This document shows positions 17,140 to 25,893 of a stretch of DNA of 38,039 nt, in pieces. Made by a program: the position numbers and the translations under genes. Source of the stretch: a bacterium (GTDB taxonomy: Bacteria > Auribacterota > UBA3054 > JAPLST01); contig JAOACZ010000198.1 of NCBI GenBank assembly GCA_026417575.1, forward strand, positions 1 through 38,039. Direction: 5' to 3'. Each line of letters opens with the position of its first letter. The stretch's first letter is position 1. A model generated the notes under the pieces. That model made no database searches. It saw only the letters and a program-made list of their open reading frames with translations, and was not told where the DNA came from.

Positions 17140-18111
17140 TCAGAGGAATTTCCGGGCGGCCTGGCGAGAGAGTTTGGACATATCGTGGAGAGTGAAGAAG
17201 TCAATGCACTTGAAGTCTTTGTCGAGGGCTGGCTCGCCGCAAATGACAGCTCCGGCACGAAGGTAGGAGGAGAGGAGGGGTGGGACAAGTTTATGAGCGT
17301 ATTCTTCGACGGTGCGTACATCGAGATTTTCAATCAATTTGATGTAGAGAGGGAGGGCCCGCATACGGTAAGGCTCGAGGGGTGTGACGCGGCAGGAGGG
17401 GTCGGAGGGGTAGTGGGACATAAGGTAGTGATAAATGACAGCAGCTTCCAAAGGGTCAGTGGTTTTGACGCTGGAGCAGCCGAACATGAAGCTGGTATTG
17501 GTTGCTTTAACGTATTCGCTCAGGCCACGCCAAAGGAGGGTGAGGATGACGCCCTTGCGATAATCCTTGTGGACACACGCGCGACCGAGCTCGAGCTTGA
17601 CGCCGGGGAGGGCTGTAATAGCATCGATGGCGAACTCAGTTGCGGAGTAGAAGTGGTCATTGAAAGTGGAGCAATTAAGGCGGTAGGTACCGACGCAGGT
17701 GTTAGATTTTTTCTCGAGAATCATGAGATGATCACAGATGGCGTCGAACTCATCCATGTCGATGGCAAAGAAGCGGCGTTTCTCAAGGAATTCTTTGTAG
17801 AAAACACGGTAGCGAAGGCGTAAGATTTTGTCGAGTTCTGCAGGAGTCTCGACGGTTTTGAGAACGAAGTTTTTGAGTTCGATATAGACGGGGACTTTAC
17901 AGCGGAAGGCGCGGAGACGGAAGCGGTAGGGGAGGACGAGTCCAGTGCTGGCGCGCACGACGGAGCGAAGGACGCTCTGTTTTTGAGGGGGGTGGGTGAC
18001 AGGGCGGCGGAAGAATTGGAGGGGGACGCGGAGGAGGCGTCGGCGAATGCGCGCGACGCGGGCGCGCGTTGAAAGGTGAGGAGGCGCAGATGGCGGCGAG
18101 TCCGGGGGCAT
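17140..18111 (-). CDS. GNAT-family acyltransferase (OlsB / COG3176-like)
   Basis: A 323-residue protein with a basic, Pro/Arg-rich N-terminus (about 1-75) and an Acetyltransf_5-type GNAT domain (about 80-265). Family-typical stretches are LRLRYRVFYKEF, VGTYRLNC, LELGRACVHKDYRKG, LLWRGLSEYV and FMFGCSSVKTTDP. Relatives include OlsB, which transfers 3-hydroxyacyl groups from ACP to ornithine, and exosortase-associated acyltransferases; the substrate here cannot be decided. GGAGG lies about 11 bases upstream of ATG 18111. It begins 23 bases after the hydrogenase large-subunit gene and is the last gene of that operon, which is an unexpected partnership. Lipid or surface modification is the likeliest role. 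Confidence 0.75.
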   Translation of the reverse strand: MPPDSPPSAPPHLSTRARVARIRRRLLRVPLQFFRRPVTHPPQKQSVLRSVVRASTGLVLPYRFRLRAFRCKVPVYIELKNFVLKTVETPAELDKILRLRYRVFYKEFLEKRRFFAIDMDEFDAICDHLMILEKKSNTCVGTYRLNCSTFNDHFYSATEFAIDAITALPGVKLELGRACVHKDYRKGVILTLLWRGLSEYVKATNTSFMFGCSSVKTTDPLEAAVIYHYLMSHYPSDPSCRVTPLEPYRMRALPLYIKLIENLDVRTVEEYAHKLVPPLLSSYLRAGAVICGEPALDKDFKCIDFFTLHDMSKLSRQAARKFL

Positions 18112-18134
18112 GGGAAGCCTTTCCTCCGGGCAAG

Positions 18135-19562
18135 CTAGCGCCGGGAGAGACGCTTGATTAGCTGGCCAGCCGGGGTGACCAGGTCGACGACAAGTGGCAT
18201 TTGGCCGTAGGCGTGGGTGGCACAGCTAAGGCACGGGTCATAGCAGCGAATGCCGGCCTCGATGCGATTGAGGATGCCTTCGGTGATTTCATGGCCGGGC
18301 TTGATGAACTCACGCGCGATGGTTTCGACGGCTTTATTCATCCCGATGTTATTTTGGGTCGTAGCGACGATAAGGTTAACTTTGGTAAGTAAGCCGTCGG
18401 GGTTAATTTTGTAGTGGTGGATGAGAGTACCGCGGGGGGCTTCAATGATACCGATGCCTTCAGTGCGCAGCTCACCGCGGTGAACGAGGTCGTCGTTTTC
18501 GAGGTCGTCGTCCTCAAGGAGGTTTTGGATGACCTCAGCAGCGTGGAGCATTTCTACTAGGCGTGCAATGTGGTAGAAAAGGGAGCCTTTGACGGGTCGG
18601 CCGCTGGCGAGACGTTTAAAGAAGTCGAAATATTTTTGCGCTCGCGGGGTGCCAATACTGTCAGCGACGTTGAAGCGTGCGAGCGGGCCGACACGGTAGC
18701 ATCCGTCAGGGTAGCCGAGTTTGCGGAAGAAGGGGAATTTCATATAGGACCAGTCCTCGACGGCTTCGGCGATTTCAGAGAGATAGTTTTCGTAGGGGAG
18801 CTGGTCGAAGACGATGCGACCCTGAGCATCGATACCGCGAAGTTTACCGTGGTACAGTTGCAATTCACCTTTTTCGTCGACGGTACCCATATAGGGGGTG
18901 TCAAACGAGGCAAAGGAAGCGAAGAGCTCCTTGTTTTTGTTGTAGAAGTCGAGACAGAGATTGACACTTTCTTCGGCCCATTCGACGATGGTGGGGATTT
19001 CGGCGCGAAGGCGTGAACGGTCTGTAGATTTAATTGGGGCGTTCATGCCCCCGGGGATGGCACCAGTAGGATGGATTTTCTTACCACCGGTGGCTTTGAT
19101 GACCTCCTGACCGTACTTGCGCATTTTAATGGCCTTGAGGGTGGTCTGCGGGTCGACGGAGACTAAGCCAACGAGATTGCGAATTGTGGGGTCGGCGTCG
19201 AAGCCGAGGAGGAAGTCAGCGGCGCAAAGGTGGAAGAAGTGGAGGGCATGAGATTGGAGGACTTGGCCGTAGTGCATGAGGCGGCGGAGGAGATCAGCGG
19301 GGCGGGGGACATTGGCACTGACGAGCATGTCACATGTTTTCGCGGCGGCGAGGTGGTGGCTAACGGGACATATGCCGCACATTCGTTCGGACATGACGGG
19401 CATTTCCCAAAAAGGACGGCCCTGGACGAACTTTTCGAAACCGCGGAATTCAATAATATGGAGGCGAGCCTGTTCAACTTTACCAGCGTCGTTGATGACT
19501 AGCGTGACTTTGCCATGACCTTCGACACGGGTGACAGGATTGATTTCAATTTTGCGAGGCAT
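18135..19562 (-). CDS. hoxH: [NiFe] hydrogenase large subunit, group 3 (HoxH-like)
   Basis: Catalytic subunit that binds the NiFe(CN)2CO centre and interconverts H2 with protons and electrons in the cytoplasm. The 475 residues contain the N-terminal pair RMCGICPVSH (C62, C65), INPVTRVEGHGKVTL with the conserved Glu, and the C-terminal pair DPCLSCATH (C444, C447, H450). A 25-residue extension after His450 (AYGQMPLVVDLV...) is the peptide normally removed by an endopeptidase after nickel insertion, so a HoxW/HyaD-type protease must be encoded elsewhere. EFRGFEKFVQGRPFWEMP fits bidirectional HoxH (group 3c/3d) rather than membrane uptake enzymes. It has its own predicted promoter at 19619-19647, besides read-through from hoxY 86 bases upstream. 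Confidence 0.93.
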   Translation of the reverse strand: MPRKIEINPVTRVEGHGKVTLVINDAGKVEQARLHIIEFRGFEKFVQGRPFWEMPVMSERMCGICPVSHHLAAAKTCDMLVSANVPRPADLLRRLMHYGQVLQSHALHFFHLCAADFLLGFDADPTIRNLVGLVSVDPQTTLKAIKMRKYGQEVIKATGGKKIHPTGAIPGGMNAPIKSTDRSRLRAEIPTIVEWAEESVNLCLDFYNKNKELFASFASFDTPYMGTVDEKGELQLYHGKLRGIDAQGRIVFDQLPYENYLSEIAEAVEDWSYMKFPFFRKLGYPDGCYRVGPLARFNVADSIGTPRAQKYFDFFKRLASGRPVKGSLFYHIARLVEMLHAAEVIQNLLEDDDLENDDLVHRGELRTEGIGIIEAPRGTLIHHYKINPDGLLTKVNLIVATTQNNIGMNKAVETIAREFIKPGHEITEGILNRIEAGIRCYDPCLSCATHAYGQMPLVVDLVTPAGQLIKRLSRR

Positions 19563-19618
19563 AGGGTACGTGGAACGCGTGAACGTTCGCGGTGGTTAGG
19601 GTAACCTATTCTGAGATT

Positions 19619-19647
19619 AGTGTACCATAAAGTGCAATTGAAGTCAA
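19619..19647 (-). promoter_or_regulatory. Internal promoter before hoxH
   Basis: TTGACT (19647-19642), 17 bases, TACACT (19624-19619) on the minus strand. Both hexamers and the spacing are identical to the ilvD promoter at 26765-26793. It lies just after the hoxY stop and gives a leader of about 50 bases for hoxH and the acyltransferase. Confidence 0.65.
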
Positions 19648-19648
19648 C

Positions 19649-20209
19649 TTAATCAAACTTAAACAAGGTGTAGGGGATCTGCTCGGGCGGGGGAACACGT
19701 CCGGCGAGCAATTCCGTCAGGACAAACCAGATAACATCGGCGTCGGGTGGACAGCCCGGGATGCAGTAGTCGGTTTTGACTACGTGGGGCACGGGAAGGA
19801 CTTTCGGGAGGAGTTTTGGCAGATCGGGGCCGTTGGGAATCTTACCATTGACGGTGGAGTCGGTATTAAGAAACGCTTCTTCAAGACATTCTTGGAGCGA
19901 GAACATATTGCGCATAGCGGGGAGGTTGCCAAACACGGCGCAGTCGCCAAGGGCGATAAGGAATTCCGCTTTTTCGCGATACAGGTGGAGTGTTTCCACG
20001 TTTTCCTCGTTACAGACGGCGCCCTCGATGAGGGCGATTTTGACCTCGGGTGGCTTTTTGATATCCGTGATGGGGCTTGCCGTGATATCGACGAGCTTGA
20101 CCAGGTCAAGGATTCGCTCATCAATATCGAGGAGGGACATATGGCAACCAGCGCAGCCGCCGAGCCAGCAGGTGGCGATTTTAGGTTTTGAAGAAGGCGT
20201 GACAGACAT
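19649..20209 (-). CDS. hoxY: [NiFe] hydrogenase small subunit (HoxY-like)
   Basis: Electron-transfer subunit that carries the [4Fe-4S] cluster next to the NiFe site. At 186 residues it has the short soluble HoxY/MvhG form without Tat signal. Cluster cysteines are visible in CWLGGCAGCHMSLLDIDE (C14, C19, C22), GAVCNEEN, LGDCAVFGN and DYCIPGCPPDAD, the expected ligand set for one proximal cluster plus extra cysteines. It follows hoxU by 45 bases and precedes hoxH, the standard order of soluble bidirectional hydrogenases. Confidence 0.92.
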   Translation of the reverse strand: MSVTPSSKPKIATCWLGGCAGCHMSLLDIDERILDLVKLVDITASPITDIKKPPEVKIALIEGAVCNEENVETLHLYREKAEFLIALGDCAVFGNLPAMRNMFSLQECLEEAFLNTDSTVNGKIPNGPDLPKLLPKVLPVPHVVKTDYCIPGCPPDADVIWFVLTELLAGRVPPPEQIPYTLFKFD

Positions 20210-20254
20210 AGCGGGTGTAAGTGCAGTGTTAGGAAGATGGATCGCAAGAGGTGT

Positions 20255-21181
20255 TCATGAATTTTGCCTCGACTGCATGCGTCGTGATTTTTTTTGCACT
20301 GTGCGACGAGGTGGGGAGGGGCGTGCAGAGTGTGAAGGGGGTGAAGCAGCGGCCGTTTGCGCAGCGGGAGTTTGCGTTGGTGATGGCGACGGTGTGGGTG
20401 AGGGTGAGGGTGTGGGTGCAGGCGTAGGAGGCTGGGTAGTCGGAGCAGCGGAGGGTGGAGTCGTTGGTGGCCGCTTAGGCGTTGGTAAATACGAGATCGG
20501 GGTGGTATCGTACAGGCGCTCACCGTAGCGGACACTATAGGCGAGTTCGCGTTTGCACAGGGAGCCGGTGGGACACACTTGAATAGCCGCGTCGATCACG
20601 GTGGTGTCTGTGTCGCCAAGTCTTCCGTCGATATTGACGGTGATATCTGATTCGATGCCGCGGCCTTTGATAGCGAAGATGCCTTTTTTGTCGACTTCTG
20701 CGCTCGCGCGGACGCAGCGGCCGCAGAGGATGCAGCGGTTGGGGTCATGAATGACGTCTGAGTGGGATGCGTCCACGTCCTTTTTGGGCCAGAGGAAGGG
20801 GAAGCGGACGTAGCTCATGCCGAGGCGGTAAGCGAGGGCTTGGAGCTCGCAGTTGCCGCTTTTTTCACAGTAGGGGCACTGATGATTGCGTTCTGAGAAG
20901 ATGAGTTCAAGGTTCATTCGACGGAGGGCAACAATTTCAGGCGTTTTGGTATGGACGACCATGTCGTCGGTGGCAGGGGTGGTGCACGCAGAATTGAAGT
21001 TCTGTCGGCCGGTGCCCTCGATTTCCACGACGCACATGCGGCAGGCACCGGAATTGGAGAGCAAGGGATGATGACAGAGGGTGGGGATGTAGATATTTGC
21101 ACGTTTGGCGGCATCGAGGATTGTGTCACCCTCGTAAGCCGAGACACGGACACCGTCGATCGTGAGGAGGATTGTTTTCAT
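20255..21181 (-). CDS. hoxU: HoxU-like iron-sulfur subunit with Pro/Thr/Ser-rich tail
   Basis: Relay subunit linking the diaphorase to the hydrogenase. Residues 1-230 are a full HoxU: [2Fe-2S] ligands C36, C47, C50, C66 (LCHHPLLSNSGACRMC...SAC), the His/Cys cluster HQCPYCEKSGNC (H100, C102, C105, C111), and a [4Fe-4S] set CILCGRC (C150, C153, C156) with C203 in QVCPTGSL. The family normally ends soon after RYGERLYD. Here about 78 residues follow, almost entirely Pro, Thr, Ser and Ala (PTPAPTPSPSPTPSPSPT), ending in a basic segment rich in Arg/Lys. The tail is encoded by low-complexity DNA at 20255-20490, without frameshift up to the stop. It is 35 bases downstream of the hoxF fusion. Confidence 0.9.
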   Translation of the reverse strand: MKTILLTIDGVRVSAYEGDTILDAAKRANIYIPTLCHHPLLSNSGACRMCVVEIEGTGRQNFNSACTTPATDDMVVHTKTPEIVALRRMNLELIFSERNHQCPYCEKSGNCELQALAYRLGMSYVRFPFLWPKKDVDASHSDVIHDPNRCILCGRCVRASAEVDKKGIFAIKGRGIESDITVNIDGRLGDTDTTVIDAAIQVCPTGSLCKRELAYSVRYGERLYDTTPISYLPTPKRPPTTPPSAAPTTQPPTPAPTPSPSPTPSPSPTQTPAAQTAAASPPSHSARPSPPRRTVQKKSRRMQSRQNS

Positions 21182-21216
21182 AGGAGGACGCTAGACATGA
21201 GCGATAGCATGAGAGG

Positions 21217-24200
21217 TTAGCGGATAGGGGCGATAGAAGCACGGTCGCAGTGGAGGCAATGGCGGGCCTCTTCCATAACCTGATCGCGGCTTAGGCCGCG
21301 TTCCACTTCGTTAAAGTTACCGGCACGTTCTTCGACTGGGAGGACATACTGTTCGAACTGCTTGCGCGTCTCGACGTAGTCGTGTTCGTCGTAGGTAGTG
21401 ACGGGAATAAGGGTGGTGCGTGGCTTCCAGAGGATGCCATCGCCACCGAGGAAGCGATCGACGGCGGCGGCAACGCGCTGACCGTCGCCGATCGCGTCAG
21501 CGACCATGGCGGGACCCGTGGTATCATCGCCGGCCGCGAAGACACCGGGGACGTTGGTCATACGGGTACGCTCGTCGACGAGGAAGGTGCGATATTTGGG
21601 GTCAACGAGGATATTCTTTTCCACTTCAGCGAAGTGCGATTCGGGCTCTTGACCAAGGGCGGGAATGACCATGTCAACGGGGATTTCAAATTCTGACCCC
21701 TCGATGATGGAGGTTTTCCGGCGGCCTGTATCGTCGTAGGCACCGAGGCGCATACGGGCGCATTTGAGGGCGACGACATGGCCGTCCACACCGATGGCTT
21801 CGAGGGGAGTAACTAGGAAGGTGAACTTGACACCTTCGTTGATAGCTTCTTCGATTTCTTCCTTCAAGGCGGGCATATCCTCTTTGAGGCGGCGGTAGAG
21901 GACCTCGACGGACTTTGCGCCGAGGCGGAGAGCTGTGCGGGCGGCATCCATGGCGGTATTGCCGCCGCCGACGACGACGACGCGCTTTCCTCTGACCATC
22001 ATGGGATAGCCGATATTAAAGTCGCGGAGGAAGTCCATGCCACCGACGACACCGGCGAGATGTTCGCCTTTGACACCGAGTTTATAGCTGACGTGGGCGC
22101 CGATGGCGAGGCAGATGGCTTTGTAGCCGAGGGCGAAGATTTGATCAATCGTGATGTTTTTGCCGACTTTGACGCCATAGACGATGCGGACGCCCATATC
22201 CGTGATCATTTTGACTTCTTGGTCGATGACCTCGCGAGGGAGGCGGTAGGCTGGTATGCCGAAGCGGAGGGTACCGCCAGGGTAGGGGAGAGCCTCGAAC
22301 ATGACGACCTCGTAGCCTTTTTTCGCGAGGAAGTAGGCGATGGTGAGGCCGGCGGGGCCGGTGCCGACGATAGCGACTTTATCTTTGGTTGGTTTGATGC
22401 GTTCAATGGGGAGCTCTTTTTCGTAGAGGGAGATGTAGCGTTTAATTGCGCGGATGTCGATGGCACGATCAGTTTGGCCACGGCGACACTTGGTCATGCA
22501 GGGGTGGTGGCAGACGCGGCCACAGATGGCGGGGAGCGGGTTCCGCTCACGGTGGAGGAGGAGGGCGTCGATGAAACGGCCTTCGGCGGCGAGCTGGACG
22601 TAGCCAGCTGCGTCGACATTGCAGGGGCAGGCGTTTTCGCAGGGGGCGGTGAACAGTGCGGTACAAACGCCAGCTTTGCAGCGTTTGTCGATAATGTGCT
22701 CCTCGTATTCTTTACGGAAGTAGCGTAGGGTGGAGAGGACGGGGTTAGGAGCAGACTGGCCGAGGCCGCAAAGGCTCATGCGTTGCATCATTTTGCCGAG
22801 CTCGAGCATGCGGTCAATGTCTTCGGGCTGACCTTGGCCTTTGGTGATGCGATCGAGGATATCATAGAGTTGTTTAGTACCGACGCGGCAGGGGGGGCAT
22901 TTGCCGCAGGACTCGCTGACGCAGAATTCCATAAAGAACTTGGCGACATCCACCATGCAGGTATCTTCGTCCATGACGATGAGGCCGCCGGAGCCCATCA
23001 TGGAGCCGATTTCCTTGAGGGTTTCGTACTCCATGGAGATATCGAGGAACTGTTTTGGGATACAGCCACCGGAGGGGCCGCCTGTTTGGGCGGCTTTGAA
23101 TTGTTTTCCATCGGGGATTCCGCCACCGATATCGAAGATAATTTGGCGCAGGGTGGTGCCCATGGGAACTTCGACGATGCCGGTGTTGCGGACACGACCG
23201 GCGAGGGCGAAGACTTTGGTACCTTTGCTGCGCTCAGTACCGATGGAAGCGAACCAGGCGCCGCCGTTACGGATGATGGGGGGTATACACGCGAAGGTTT
23301 CGACGTTATTAATGAGGGTGGGCATACCCCAGAGGCCTTTGATAGCAGGGAAGGGGGGCTTCGGAGAGGGCTGGCCGCGCTTACCTTCGATGGAGTGGAG
23401 GAGGGCCGTTTCTTCGCCGCAGACAAAGGCGCCAGCGCCGATACGGAGTTCGATGTCGAAGTTGAAGGGGGTTTCGAAGATATTTTTTCCGAGGAGGCCG
23501 TATTGGCGGGCGGCGGCGATACCCTTTTCGATCATTTCGATGGCGAGGGGATATTCGGCGCGGCAGTAGATGATGCCGTGTTCGGCGCCGACGGCGTAGC
23601 CCGCGATAGCCATGGCTTCGAGGACGCGATGGGGGTCACCTTCGAGGACGTTGCGGTCCATGAAGGCACCTGGGTCGCCTTCGTCGGCGTTACAGACGAC
23701 ATATTTGCGTTCACCTTCTGCGCGGGCGACGAAATCCCACTTGACGCCGGTAGGGAAGCCGCCACCGCCACGGCCGCGCAGGCCACTGATTTTGACTTCG
23801 TGAATGACCTCCTGGGGGGTCATTTCAGTGAGGACCTTGGCGAGGGCGGAGTAGCCGTCGCGGCCGATGTAGTCTTCGATGCTGGCGGGGTTAATGATGC
23901 CGGCATTTTCCATGACAATGCGCAATTCCTGGCCCTTGAAGAAGTTGGTTTTGCGCATGTTGGCGATGACGTCTTTCGCGTCGAGCGACTCGTCCATGAG
24001 GCGGCGGACGGGGCGGCCTTTGAGGAAATGTTCTTCGATAATTTCATGGACATCGCGTGGGTGGACTTTGACGTACATGACGTCGTCGGGATAGACGATC
24101 ATCACGGGTGCCTGCTTACAATAGCCGACGCAGTCGGAGGTGAGGATACGGACTTCGTCGTCGAGGCCGAATTCCCCGAGGCGGGCGCGAAGTGCGGATT

Positions 24201-24273
24201 CGACGGCAGAAGCGCCTTTTTTCTCACACACGGCGCCGGTACAGATCAGAACACGCAAACGTGCAGTGGGCAT
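21217..24273 (-). CDS. hoxF: HoxF/HydB-like flavoprotein fused to GltD/NfnB-like FAD oxidoreductase
   Basis: A 1018-residue fusion. (1) Residues 1-85: thioredoxin-fold [2Fe-2S] domain, C11, C16, C48, C52. (2) About 100-540: NuoF-type NADH/FMN module with GLRGRGGGGFPTGVKW, NADEGDPGAFMDR, GAGAFVCGEETAL, and a [4Fe-4S] set SCGKCPPC (C456, C459, C462) plus C502; then RCKAGVC (C532, C537), which I recall as typical of bifurcating HydB subunits. (3) About 541-1010: a complete GltD/NfnB-like unit with two cluster motifs (C545/C549/C551 and CGRVCHHPCMTKC at 584-596), FAD site VAIVGTGPAGLTIAYFLAKK, nucleotide site VVVVGGGNTAMDAARTALRL, and NVPGVFAAGDDTTGPAMVADA. Part 3 stands where HydB carries a two-cluster ferredoxin domain. 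The enzyme thus has two flavins and two pyridine-nucleotide sites. All expected motifs are intact. Confidence 0.93.
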   Translation of the reverse strand: MPTARLRVLICTGAVCEKKGASAVESALRARLGEFGLDDEVRILTSDCVGYCKQAPVMIVYPDDVMYVKVHPRDVHEIIEEHFLKGRPVRRLMDESLDAKDVIANMRKTNFFKGQELRIVMENAGIINPASIEDYIGRDGYSALAKVLTEMTPQEVIHEVKISGLRGRGGGGFPTGVKWDFVARAEGERKYVVCNADEGDPGAFMDRNVLEGDPHRVLEAMAIAGYAVGAEHGIIYCRAEYPLAIEMIEKGIAAARQYGLLGKNIFETPFNFDIELRIGAGAFVCGEETALLHSIEGKRGQPSPKPPFPAIKGLWGMPTLINNVETFACIPPIIRNGGAWFASIGTERSKGTKVFALAGRVRNTGIVEVPMGTTLRQIIFDIGGGIPDGKQFKAAQTGGPSGGCIPKQFLDISMEYETLKEIGSMMGSGGLIVMDEDTCMVDVAKFFMEFCVSESCGKCPPCRVGTKQLYDILDRITKGQGQPEDIDRMLELGKMMQRMSLCGLGQSAPNPVLSTLRYFRKEYEEHIIDKRCKAGVCTALFTAPCENACPCNVDAAGYVQLAAEGRFIDALLLHRERNPLPAICGRVCHHPCMTKCRRGQTDRAIDIRAIKRYISLYEKELPIERIKPTKDKVAIVGTGPAGLTIAYFLAKKGYEVVMFEALPYPGGTLRFGIPAYRLPREVIDQEVKMITDMGVRIVYGVKVGKNITIDQIFALGYKAICLAIGAHVSYKLGVKGEHLAGVVGGMDFLRDFNIGYPMMVRGKRVVVVGGGNTAMDAARTALRLGAKSVEVLYRRLKEDMPALKEEIEEAINEGVKFTFLVTPLEAIGVDGHVVALKCARMRLGAYDDTGRRKTSIIEGSEFEIPVDMVIPALGQEPESHFAEVEKNILVDPKYRTFLVDERTRMTNVPGVFAAGDDTTGPAMVADAIGDGQRVAAAVDRFLGGDGILWKPRTTLIPVTTYDEHDYVETRKQFEQYVLPVEERAGNFNEVERGLSRDQVMEEARHCLHCDRASIAPIR

Positions 24274-24323
24274 ATTTCTGTGGACTCAGAGAAGAGTTAA
24301 GGGAAGGAGACGCACAGGACACA

Positions 24324-24716
24324 TCAAGCGGTAGTGGGTGTATTGCCGACATCACCTGGGACAACGACGCGATGGGAAGCGAGAATCTGTCCTCGGACGA
24401 TGTGAGTTTCAAGTAGTTCACGAATCATATCTGGTTTTAAGTTACCGTAGACGACCTTTTCATTGCCGTGATAGATAGCGCACATCGGCTCGATATCATC
24501 GAGGCCGAAGCTGCCGGATTGGGTGACGATGACATTGAGGCCGAGGTTCTGGACTTCCTCCATAATTTTTTTGAGGATCTCGCGGGCACCGTAAAGGATG
24601 CCACTGGTACCCATGCTGACGACGATTTTCCATTCAGGTTCTTGGGCTTGGCGAGCACGCTGCTCGAGTGCGGCAGCAGCACGTTCACGGATTTTGCGTA
24701 ATTCATCAAGGGTCAT
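24324..24716 (-). CDS. Thioredoxin-fold ferredoxin homologue lacking cluster cysteines
   Basis: A 130-residue protein aligning with the small (2Fe-2S) ferredoxin-like proteins encoded in HydABC-type hydrogenase operons: an N-terminal helix (MTLDELRKIRERAAAALEQR), VVSMGTSGILYGAREILKKI, VIVTQSGSFGLDDIEPMCAI, and VVYGNLKPDMIRELLETHIV. In homologues I remember, the equivalent positions read GTCGIAAGAR and QTGCIGxC, with Cys as cluster ligands. Here they are Ser, Ser and Asp, and the codons (AGT, AGC, GAT) are clear. The only cysteine, in EPMCAI, is not at a ligand position. The fold is probably kept for structural or regulatory use without a cluster. It lies 42 bases after the GHKL gene and 50 before hoxF. 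Confidence 0.8.
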   Translation of the reverse strand: MTLDELRKIRERAAAALEQRARQAQEPEWKIVVSMGTSGILYGAREILKKIMEEVQNLGLNVIVTQSGSFGLDDIEPMCAIYHGNEKVVYGNLKPDMIRELLETHIVRGQILASHRVVVPGDVGNTPTTA

Positions 24717-24758
24717 GAGAGTGCAGCGAAGGCATGGAGGGTTAGAGACAGCATCGGG

Positions 24759-25298
24759 TTAGGATGCAGAAAGTTGTTCACGGAACCAGGTAGTCATATC
24801 GGCAGACTGCCAGAGGGCATCGGCATGGGGTCCAAGGGCGCGGCGGACAGGGAGGGTATCGAAGGTGACGCAGCGTTGGTTGCGACGGTGAGCGCAATAG
24901 AAGCGGACGTGAGGGTTTGCTTGAATGAGGGCACGAAGGGTTTCATTCCAGTCACCGAGGGGGGGCTGGTCAACGTTGTCGAGGGGGTACCAGCCGGTGA
25001 TGACTGTGCCACAACCGGGGCGGGATTTAATTTTGAAGCCACCGCCGCAACTTTCGACCAGCTGACGGAAGAAGGGGAGGCCGAGGCCAATGGACTTGCG
25101 GCGAGAAGTTTTGGTCGTCATGAATGGGTCCAAGGCGCGTGTGAGTGTGTGAGGGGCCATACCGCAACCGTTGTCGGCGATGGTGAGGGTGAGGCGATTG
25201 CGGGTGAAATCTTCGTCGAGCCAAATTTTGATGTAGGTGGCGCCGGCGGTGAGGGCGTTTTGAACGAGGTCGAGCATGAAAAGCGCGAGCTCATACAT
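24759..25298 (-). CDS. Stand-alone GHKL-type ATPase
   Basis: A 179-residue histidine-kinase-like ATPase domain with no sensor, HAMP or phosphoacceptor domain. N-box is ALFMLDLVQNALTAGA (near residue 14), G1 is IADNGCGM, F-box region is LDPFMTTKTSRRKSIGLGLPF which also contains the G2 loop, and a final GCGTVITG completes the fold. The C-terminal 60 residues (from about DNVDQPPLGDW) match no domain I know. Small ATPases of this kind accompany bifurcating hydrogenase genes; a role in regulation by protein phosphorylation or ATP-dependent binding is inferred. It starts 8 bases after the NuoE-like gene, so the two are very likely cotranslated. Confidence 0.82.
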   Translation of the reverse strand: MYELALFMLDLVQNALTAGATYIKIWLDEDFTRNRLTLTIADNGCGMAPHTLTRALDPFMTTKTSRRKSIGLGLPFFRQLVESCGGGFKIKSRPGCGTVITGWYPLDNVDQPPLGDWNETLRALIQANPHVRFYCAHRRNQRCVTFDTLPVRRALGPHADALWQSADMTTWFREQLSAS

Positions 25299-25306
25299 GG
25301 GGTAGG

Positions 25307-25816
25307 CTAGGCAGATGTGCGCTGATGCTCGGCCGCAAGTGCGCGGTAGTGATTAATGACGGCGCGCACTTTCGCCGGTGAAATGAGACGGTCATAGACC
25401 TTGTCATTGACCATCATCGCGGGTGCGAGGCCGCAGGCGCCGATACACCGAACCGCCTCGACACTGAACATGCGGTCTTCAGACACTTCGTCGAGGCCGA
25501 TACCGAGTTCGGCTTTCAATTGGTCGACGATCATCGGGCCACCGCGGATGTAGCAGGCCGTGCCGAGGCAGACCTTAAACTGGAAGAGGCCTTTTGGTTT
25601 TAGGTGAAAGAGATGATAAAAGGTAGCGACCCCATAAACTTCACTGACAGGGTGGCCGAGTTTGTTAGCGACATATTCGAGGACTTCGCGTGGGAGGTAC
25701 CCAAAGATTTTCTGGGCGCCGTGGAGGGTTTGGATGATAGGGCCTGGGAGATGTTTGTTTTGCTCGATGACTTCATCGAGTTGGCGATAGAGCTCGGCGC
25801 AATCTTTGCATTTCAT
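25307..25816 (-). CDS. hoxE: NuoE/HoxE-like [2Fe-2S] subunit
   Basis: First gene of the hydrogenase operon. The NuoE fold is clear: LPGPIIQTLHGAQKIFGYLP, VSEVYGVATFYHLFHLKPKG, then the [2Fe-2S] ligands in VCLGTACYIRGG (Cys five residues apart) and CIGACGLAP. It transfers electrons to or from the FMN subunit encoded two genes downstream. The frame is open to an ATG at 25846, but ATG 25816 is used because the family normally starts close to the KCKDCAELYRQL helix and the promoter at 25865-25893 would leave only about 12 bases of leader for the longer version. Neither start has a Shine-Dalgarno. The product is 169 residues with this start. Confidence 0.9.
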   Translation of the reverse strand: MKCKDCAELYRQLDEVIEQNKHLPGPIIQTLHGAQKIFGYLPREVLEYVANKLGHPVSEVYGVATFYHLFHLKPKGLFQFKVCLGTACYIRGGPMIVDQLKAELGIGLDEVSEDRMFSVEAVRCIGACGLAPAMMVNDKVYDRLISPAKVRAVINHYRALAAEHQRTSA

Positions 25817-25864
25817 ACGATGCCGGAGGTGAGGCATTATGCACATGTAACAAATACAGGGGTT

Positions 25865-25893
25865 ATTCTACACAAAGGGACAGGCAAAGTCAA
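25865..25893 (-). promoter_or_regulatory. Promoter of the hydrogenase operon
   Basis: TTGACT (25893-25888), 17 bases, TAGAAT (25870-25865) on the minus strand. It lies between the mntP stop and hoxE. The predicted start is near 25858. Confidence 0.7.

Follow-up and report, generated by a model that had tools for sequence, protein, structure and literature searches.

The 38,039-nucleotide stretch analysed here (contig JAOACZ010000198.1, hereafter the window) belongs to a metagenome-assembled bacterial genome of 2.7 Mb that is 81% complete, and carries on its minus strand an operon encoding a putative soluble [NiFe] hydrogenase. With about even confidence, we propose that this enzyme combines a hydrogenase module of group 3d (HoxUYH) with a bifurcating core of the BfuBC type, whose ferredoxin exit would have been replaced by an exit to NADP(H). 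The subunits and the segments of the central fusion protein on which this proposal is based are the following (B1 to B5 and C1 denote iron-sulfur clusters):

25307-25846, minus strand: NuoE/HydC protein (BfuC-type) with one predicted [2Fe-2S] cluster, C1 (C93, C98, C134, C138); start candidates at 25846 or 25816.
21217-24273, minus strand: BfuB(HydB)-GltD fusion of 1018 residues, assigned by domain, alignment and model searches.
22663-24273, minus strand: BfuB part of the fusion, with B5, flavin mononucleotide (FMN)/NADH domain, SLBB, B1 and B2.
22663-22698, minus strand: B2 signature, H526-x5-C532-x4-C537, invariant in 48 of 48 fusions and absent in HoxF.
21220-22656, minus strand: GltD/StnC-like module with two predicted [4Fe-4S] clusters, flavin adenine dinucleotide (FAD) and NADPH domains, occupying the place of the B3/B4 ferredoxin domain.
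22441-22641, minus strand: GltD dicluster, by homology, with distal ligands C545 and C596 (plus C1006 and C1009) and proximal ligands C549, C588, C592 and K611.
21247-21258, minus strand: C1006-x2-C1009 at the C-terminus, completing the distal cluster, by homology.
20255-21181, minus strand: HoxU of group 3d type, with one [2Fe-2S] and two [4Fe-4S] clusters predicted and an extra Pro/Thr/Ser-rich tail (domains, tree).
19649-20209, minus strand: HoxY, [NiFe] small subunit, one predicted [4Fe-4S] cluster (domains, structure-sequence matches).
18135-19562, minus strand: HoxH, [NiFe] large subunit with a 25-residue C-terminal extension (domains, tree, motifs).

The first half of the fusion is a B subunit of the bifurcating HydABC/Bfu family. 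Residues 1-537 match HydB/BfuB of solved bifurcating enzymes with up to 755 bits, the B part aligning with these over 541-585 residues, and the hydrogenase HoxF (5XF9 chain A) is not among the best 60 matches listed for this half. The initial annotation of the window, made from the sequence alone, had called it HoxF and had named a firm placement of the NuoF part with non-bifurcating HoxF as an outcome that would speak against its proposal; in the NuoF tree the fusion falls firmly with bifurcating B subunits, separated at 100/100 from the HoxF genes of the same and other phyla, which form a clade of their own with long branches. The HoxF identity is thus rejected, both by this tree and by a residue-level comparison of cluster ligands. 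Indeed, the ligands of B1 (C456, C459, C462, C502), B2 (C439, T477, H526, C532, C537) and B5 (C11, C16, C48, C52) are all present in the fusion, whereas HoxF aligned residue by residue has no B2 ligands. The B2 histidine is missing from non-bifurcating homologues, and the variable B2 position is occupied by Thr instead of Cys in about two-thirds of Bfu sequences (PMC9304861). Other features of the Bfu family are likewise found, namely the FMN domain of BfuB, SLBB and B1 (PMC9304861), the N-terminal [2Fe-2S] cluster B5, and a BfuC subunit with C1: the NuoE protein retains the four C1 cysteines, among solved structures it matches best the HydC subunits from bifurcating hydrogenases, and the HoxF N-terminus scores only 26 bits.

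The second half of the fusion is what sets the enzyme apart. The C-terminal ferredoxin domain with B3/B4 (IPR017896), which is a mark of Bfu enzymes, is not in the fusion and a Fer4_20/GltD module stands in its place, so that, strictly speaking, the window enzyme falls outside the Bfu family. The GltD-type dicluster starts seven residues past C537 and is followed by the FAD and NADPH domains, the whole most closely resembling the GltD portion of StnC and of StnC relatives; its ligands were assigned by alignment to StnC together with knowledge of DPYD-type proteins, i.e. by homology. An exchange of the terminal ferredoxin domain of HydB for a GltD/NfnB module had been suggested in the initial annotation, and the exchange itself stands, while the likeness to NfnB does not: K611 aligns with K170 of StnC at the proximal cluster, where NfnB has Glu. 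In StnC, whose GltD flavin is considered non-bifurcating, this lysine sits at the proximal cluster (PMC10482914). Bifurcation of the NfnB type at the GltD FAD was therefore dropped as a candidate. In an alignment of 48 NuoF-GltD fusions from many phyla, 47 have Lys at position 611 and the remaining one has Arg, and conservation extends to the YRR motif that StnC and NfnB, both NADPH enzymes, have in common (R794 in 48/48, R795 in 47/48). An AlphaFold2 model of the fusion (mean predicted local distance difference test 87, predicted template modelling score 0.83) matches the HydB chains of bifurcating enzymes in its first half and StnC/NfnB in its second.

The same 48 fusions allow the fate of B2 to be followed. 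C439, H526, C532 and C537 are invariant in all of them, as is the seven-residue spacing between C537 of B2 and C545 of the distal GltD cluster. Conversely, the phylum of one of the genomes surveyed (G055) comprises [NiFe] enzymes in which the B subunit does not extend past the B2 motif, or stops before it, and carries no ferredoxin or GltD domain. Among eight such exit-less B subunits (L107, L209, L211-L216), B2 ligands are lost in five, which nevertheless keep all the B1 cysteines, and kept in three. This suggests that B2 is kept where an exit domain is present, be it ferredoxin or GltD, and decays otherwise; its loss in most of the exit-less relatives and its absence from HoxF support an electron flow from B2 to the GltD module in the fusions. 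The contrast between fusions, in which B2 is always kept, and exit-less relatives, in which it is mostly lost, can serve to test directly what this cluster does, a matter of debate.

By similarity and phylogeny, HoxU, HoxY and HoxH are ordinary [NiFe] hydrogenase subunits of the group 3d type. Both metal-site motifs of HoxH are intact (RMCGICPVSH and DPCLSCATH), and its 25-residue tail would need to be removed by a peptidase. In a tree of 32 HoxH sequences, the window protein and those of two relatives from the same order branch as the sister group (99/96) of the HoxH proteins from ordinary HoxFUYH hydrogenases, whereas HydL of Acetomicrobium, the exit-less group and the enzymes of Dehalococcoidia form the other clade (96/96); the Mvh references (group 3c) fall outside, and a group 3c identity, raised by an NCBIfam match to VhuA, is hence rejected. 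The HoxU tree concurs, placing the window protein with 3d HoxU at 100/99 and not with HydA of Acetomicrobium; HoxY is similar to the small subunits of A. mobile and Hydrogenophilus thermoluteolus, which carry a single cluster. These trees make the window enzyme chimeric, with a HoxU and a HoxH that are sister to those of ordinary group 3d enzymes and not to the HydA and HydL of Acetomicrobium. As to maturation, HypD adjoins, elsewhere in the window genome, an AIR-synthase-fold protein consistent with HypE. The Pro/Thr/Ser-rich C-terminal tail of HoxU, of about 75 residues (window 20255-20530), is lacking in the relative G007 and is shorter and different in G001. The same genome also holds, at a contig edge (G000:C77:8-184), the end of an [FeFe] hydrogenase-like large-subunit domain, perhaps from a complete gene.

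How such an enzyme might work can be outlined from its solved relatives. In Bfu enzymes mid-potential electrons enter via B1, the high-potential pair goes to NAD at FMN, and C1 and B2 carry the low-potential electrons to B3/B4 and ferredoxin (PMC8880783, PMC9304861). By analogy, H2 would be split at the NiFe site of HoxH and its electrons passed through HoxY, HoxU and B1 to FMN, which would feed two branches, one of high potential with a hydride transferred to NAD+ and one of low potential with electrons passed singly to the C1/B2 pair. The sole exit past B2 in the window fusion is the NADP(H) module; ligand conservation and position suggest that electrons would proceed from B2 to the GltD dicluster, FAD and NADP+, the GltD flavin acting as a relay and not as a second bifurcating site. 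The net reaction would be 2 H2 + NAD+ + NADP+ = NADH + NADPH + 2 H+ and would be reversible, so that in fermentation H2 would be made from NADH and NADPH together. Using cell potentials from published work (NADH -280 mV, NADPH -380 mV; PMC8880783, PMC9304861), we computed that H2 falls between the two couples at 3 Pa to 7 kPa, and therefore can be the middle partner; the coupled reaction reaches equilibrium near 150 Pa H2, against 3 Pa for NADH alone. While gene content, ligand conservation and phylogeny are read directly from the data, it is from these that we infer cluster occupancy, electron path, bifurcation and the direction of the reaction in the cell.

A number of points weigh against this proposal. 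We know of no activity demonstrated for an enzyme that contains a BfuB-GltD subunit. Published opinion holds the full B1-B5 set to be necessary for bifurcation, and Hyd1 of Syntrophomonas wolfei, which is without B3/B4, does not bifurcate (PMC11406978). Also, with a gap of only about 100 mV between NAD and NADP, the enzyme would not strictly need to bifurcate. Several fusions of Dehalococcoidia have other residues in place of B5 cysteines, and the model of the window fusion is free of cofactors. Finally, no HoxH-processing peptidase of the HycI type was detected in the incomplete genome of the window, such a peptidase being present in three genomes of the same order.

Some of these points would fit a non-bifurcating, bidirectional NAD(P)-linked hydrogenase in which B2 and the GltD module merely form a second, uncoupled nucleotide port. 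Indeed, S. wolfei Hyd1 shows that NADH alone can suffice for H2 production by a HydABC enzyme devoid of B3/B4 (PMC11406978), the hydrogenase module of the window is of the ordinary 3d type, and the difference in potential between NAD and NADP is small. Nevertheless, we regard this explanation as unlikely, given that the B2 ligands, lost in non-bifurcating relatives, do not vary among the 48 fusions and mostly disappear together with the exit domain, and that, with two ports not coupled to each other, the pools of NADPH and NADH would be short-circuited. A shade less probable still is the version favoured by the initial annotation, namely a four-substrate enzyme that couples H2 to NAD(H), to NADP(H) and to ferredoxin, the last docking at the GltD dicluster or elsewhere. 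In Nfn, low-potential electrons do reach ferredoxin via such an NfnB dicluster, which counts for this version, as does the fact that the dicluster of the fusion occupies the B3/B4 position. Use of ferredoxin is, moreover, general among Bfu enzymes (PMC9304861). However, the ferredoxin-binding domain of the latter, i.e. the docking domain with B3/B4, is precisely the part that the fusion has lost, which makes the suggested ferredoxin coupling less likely; K611 denotes a StnC-like module, and in Stn ferredoxin is served from B3/B4 of StnB and not from StnC (PMC10482914); and the ferredoxin homologue of the operon has lost its cysteines. Least probable by far is that FMN/B2 and the GltD FAD both bifurcate, as suggested possible for the Hydrogenedentota [FeFe] enzymes of sub-type I (PMC11406978) and compatible with the presence of both flavin domains, since in 47 of 48 fusions the proximal ligand is the Lys of the non-bifurcating StnC type and not the Glu of NfnB, and the operon has no NfnA partner. 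The extra flavin of the [FeFe] sub-type I enzymes likewise looks StnC-like and is hence probably not a second bifurcating centre, which provides a partial answer to an open question about these enzymes.

Returning to the proposed NAD+- and NADP+-linked enzyme, we have examined how widely its components occur. NuoF-GltD fusions are widespread in anaerobic phyla, mostly beside an [FeFe] HydA and often with GHKL and thioredoxin-fold genes, and were described in 2024 by Zheng and Huang as the sub-type I BfuB of [FeFe] hydrogenases (PMC11406978). A [NiFe] partner was found in the order of the window and independently in Dehalococcoidia (the class of G088), where a strong match to HoxH was obtained in 10 of the 148 genomes sampled, most of these with the arrangement NuoE-fusion-HydA (about 650 residues)-HoxY-HoxH. 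The topology of the NuoF tree can be explained only if [NiFe] fusions originated two or more times, and the HoxH tree is consistent with this; the combination thus arose at least twice, in the window's order and in Dehalococcoidia. It is tentatively, and with a confidence that falls slightly short of even, that we extend this to function: a ferredoxin-independent [NiFe] hydrogenase with FMN/Fe-S bifurcation, sending H2 electrons to NAD+ and NADP+ (or making H2 from NADH plus NADPH), would have evolved at least twice by association of [NiFe] modules with a Bfu core bearing a StnC-like NADPH exit. So far as we know, every bifurcating enzyme of the Bfu kind that has been characterised pairs ferredoxin with a nicotinamide at FMN. 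If the extension is true, the FMN/B2/C1 centre would be a general splitter with a swappable low-potential port, the energy gap known for its mechanism would be lowered, and uncultured fermenters and sediment Dehalococcoidia would have a means of balancing both nicotinamide pools with H2.

Other loci were noted in the course of this survey. In Dehalococcoidia, L176, L201 and L204-L207 hold NuoE, NuoF-GltD, a HydA of about 650 residues free of the H-cluster, HoxY and HoxH, and several of them have lost two B5 cysteines (His/Gly). In the same class, L200 and L208 carry NuoF and a NuoG-like subunit (890 residues in L200), followed by a second HydA-like gene and HoxYH, which is perhaps a dual formate/H2 enzyme. 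At a further 12 loci (L011, L021, L024, L025, L026, L033, L034, L040, L044, L046, L048, L053) fusions lie beside NuoG-like proteins without the H-cluster motifs that were searched.

Comparison with known systems narrows down what is new. The initial annotation had considered the enzyme related to, and yet distinct from, HydABCSL, and this is borne out, as the BfuBC core is shared while the exit and the HoxU/HoxH clades differ. In fact, the NiFe-HydABCSL of Acetomicrobium mobile (PMC8880783) also sets a [NiFe] module (S with one cluster, and L) on a BfuBC core, with B1, B2, B5 and C1 conserved and hisK and hydD in the operon; however, the C-terminal domain of its B subunit is a ferredoxin domain with 2x[4Fe-4S] instead of GltD, its HydA is a long form (692 residues) where the window has HoxU, and its HydL and HydA belong to other clades, on whose side the Dehalococcoidia enzymes group. 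The [FeFe] BfuABC of sub-type I, from Hydrogenedentota and other phyla, has B3/B4 replaced past B2 by DPD_II and a FAD/NAD(P) domain, as in the window, but its partner is an [FeFe] HydA (H-cluster BfuA) and not HoxU with the NiFe HoxYH; the report contains no [NiFe] case and calls the group 3d enzymes of Hydrogenedentota probably non-bifurcating (PMC11406978). Group 3d HoxFUYH/HoxEFUYH enzymes (e.g. that of H. thermoluteolus, 5XF9) are alike in HoxU and HoxH by phylogeny, in HoxY by similarity, and in cofactor content, whereas their HoxF, only distant kin of the NuoF part, has no B2 and no C-terminal exit domain. The StnABC transhydrogenase (PMC10482914) shares the BfuBC core and a GltD module that has an NADPH site and a proximal-cluster Lys; there, GltD sits in the NuoG/BfuA-type subunit as a mid-potential input and the B subunit retains its ferredoxin domain, while in the window GltD is on the B subunit. 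The group A2 'glutamate synthase-linked' hydrogenases (HydDB, PMC5037454) are also associated with a GltD-like protein, but they are [FeFe] enzymes defined by a downstream GltD protein without NuoF; NfnAB differs by its proximal Glu and its NfnA partner, the window having Lys611 and no NfnA gene in the operon. The ferredoxin-type NiFe-Bfu enzyme of Acetomicrobium and the [FeFe]-linked GltD fusion being already known, it is plausibly the combination of [NiFe] with GltD that is new, and no report of a [NiFe] enzyme with NuoF-GltD was found in the open-licence literature, a search that left subscription papers and preprints aside.

The operon as a whole consists of eight open reading frames (ORFs) on the minus strand, spanning 25846-17140 between a manganese-efflux-pump gene and the recG region. 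The gaps between them are, in order, 8, 42, 50, 35, 45, 86 and 23 bases, in line with the eight genes and gaps of 8-86 bases initially annotated. Searches of Pfam and NCBIfam identified NuoE/HydC, a GHKL ATPase, a 2Fe-2S thioredoxin-fold homologue, the NuoF + Fer4_20 + Pyr_redox_2 fusion, HoxU, the NiFe small and large subunits and a GNAT (OlsB-like) acyltransferase, so that the gene names given initially hold, except for the "HoxF" half of the fusion, which is HydB/BfuB. Besides the subunits listed above, the following features were recorded:

25865-25893, minus strand: sigma-70-like promoter match, TTGACT-17-TAGAAT, 5' of the first gene; a consensus match only, shuffles giving about as many as the region.
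24759-25298, minus strand: GHKL ATPase-fold accessory protein (HisK of Bfu operons), by domain search and neighbourhood.
24324-24716, minus strand: HydD-like homologue of thioredoxin-fold ferredoxins, in which none of the three conserved Cys remains (TSG / GS / LD).
17140-18111, minus strand: OlsB-like GNAT acyltransferase, a probable passenger, by domains and neighbourhood.

The order NuoE-GHKL-ferredoxin homologue-fusion-HoxU-HoxY-HoxH recurs in other members of the same order, to the extent that their contigs cover it, which indicates that the arrangement is not due to chance. In G007 (L104) NuoE, GHKL, fusion, HoxU, HoxY and HoxH are collinear and no ORF for the ferredoxin homologue is listed; L144, L145, L146 and L004 hold as much of the operon as each contig can. 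In G001 (L003) the run ends after HoxY, with unrelated sequence beyond (L003 6970-8700), and a 77% identical HoxH with the acyltransferase sits on a separate contig (L103), this being either a broken operon or a misassembly. Between HoxY and HoxH of G007 there is a 116-residue ORF (L104 8355-8705) that, judged by eye only, looks like a retropepsin-type aspartyl protease.

Regarding the accessory genes, the small ferredoxin homologue was identified weakly and by NCBIfam only. The three Cys conserved in [FeFe] operons (TCG, GC, LC) are Ser, Ser and Asp in the window, and the same three are lost in five of five relatives of the order with a detected copy; from its sequence the protein probably no longer binds a cluster, and a role as electron carrier is rejected on account of these losses. 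The GHKL and thioredoxin-fold genes had initially been taken as the set of bifurcating [FeFe] hydrogenases, a view that is too narrow, as the NiFe-Bfu operon of Acetomicrobium also has hisK and hydD (PMC8880783, PMC9304861), the latter apparently the same small thioredoxin-fold protein. The acyltransferase adjoins HoxH only within the same family (L103) and is absent beside HoxH in G007; it is probably a passenger, and on this neighbourhood evidence was rejected as a component of the enzyme.

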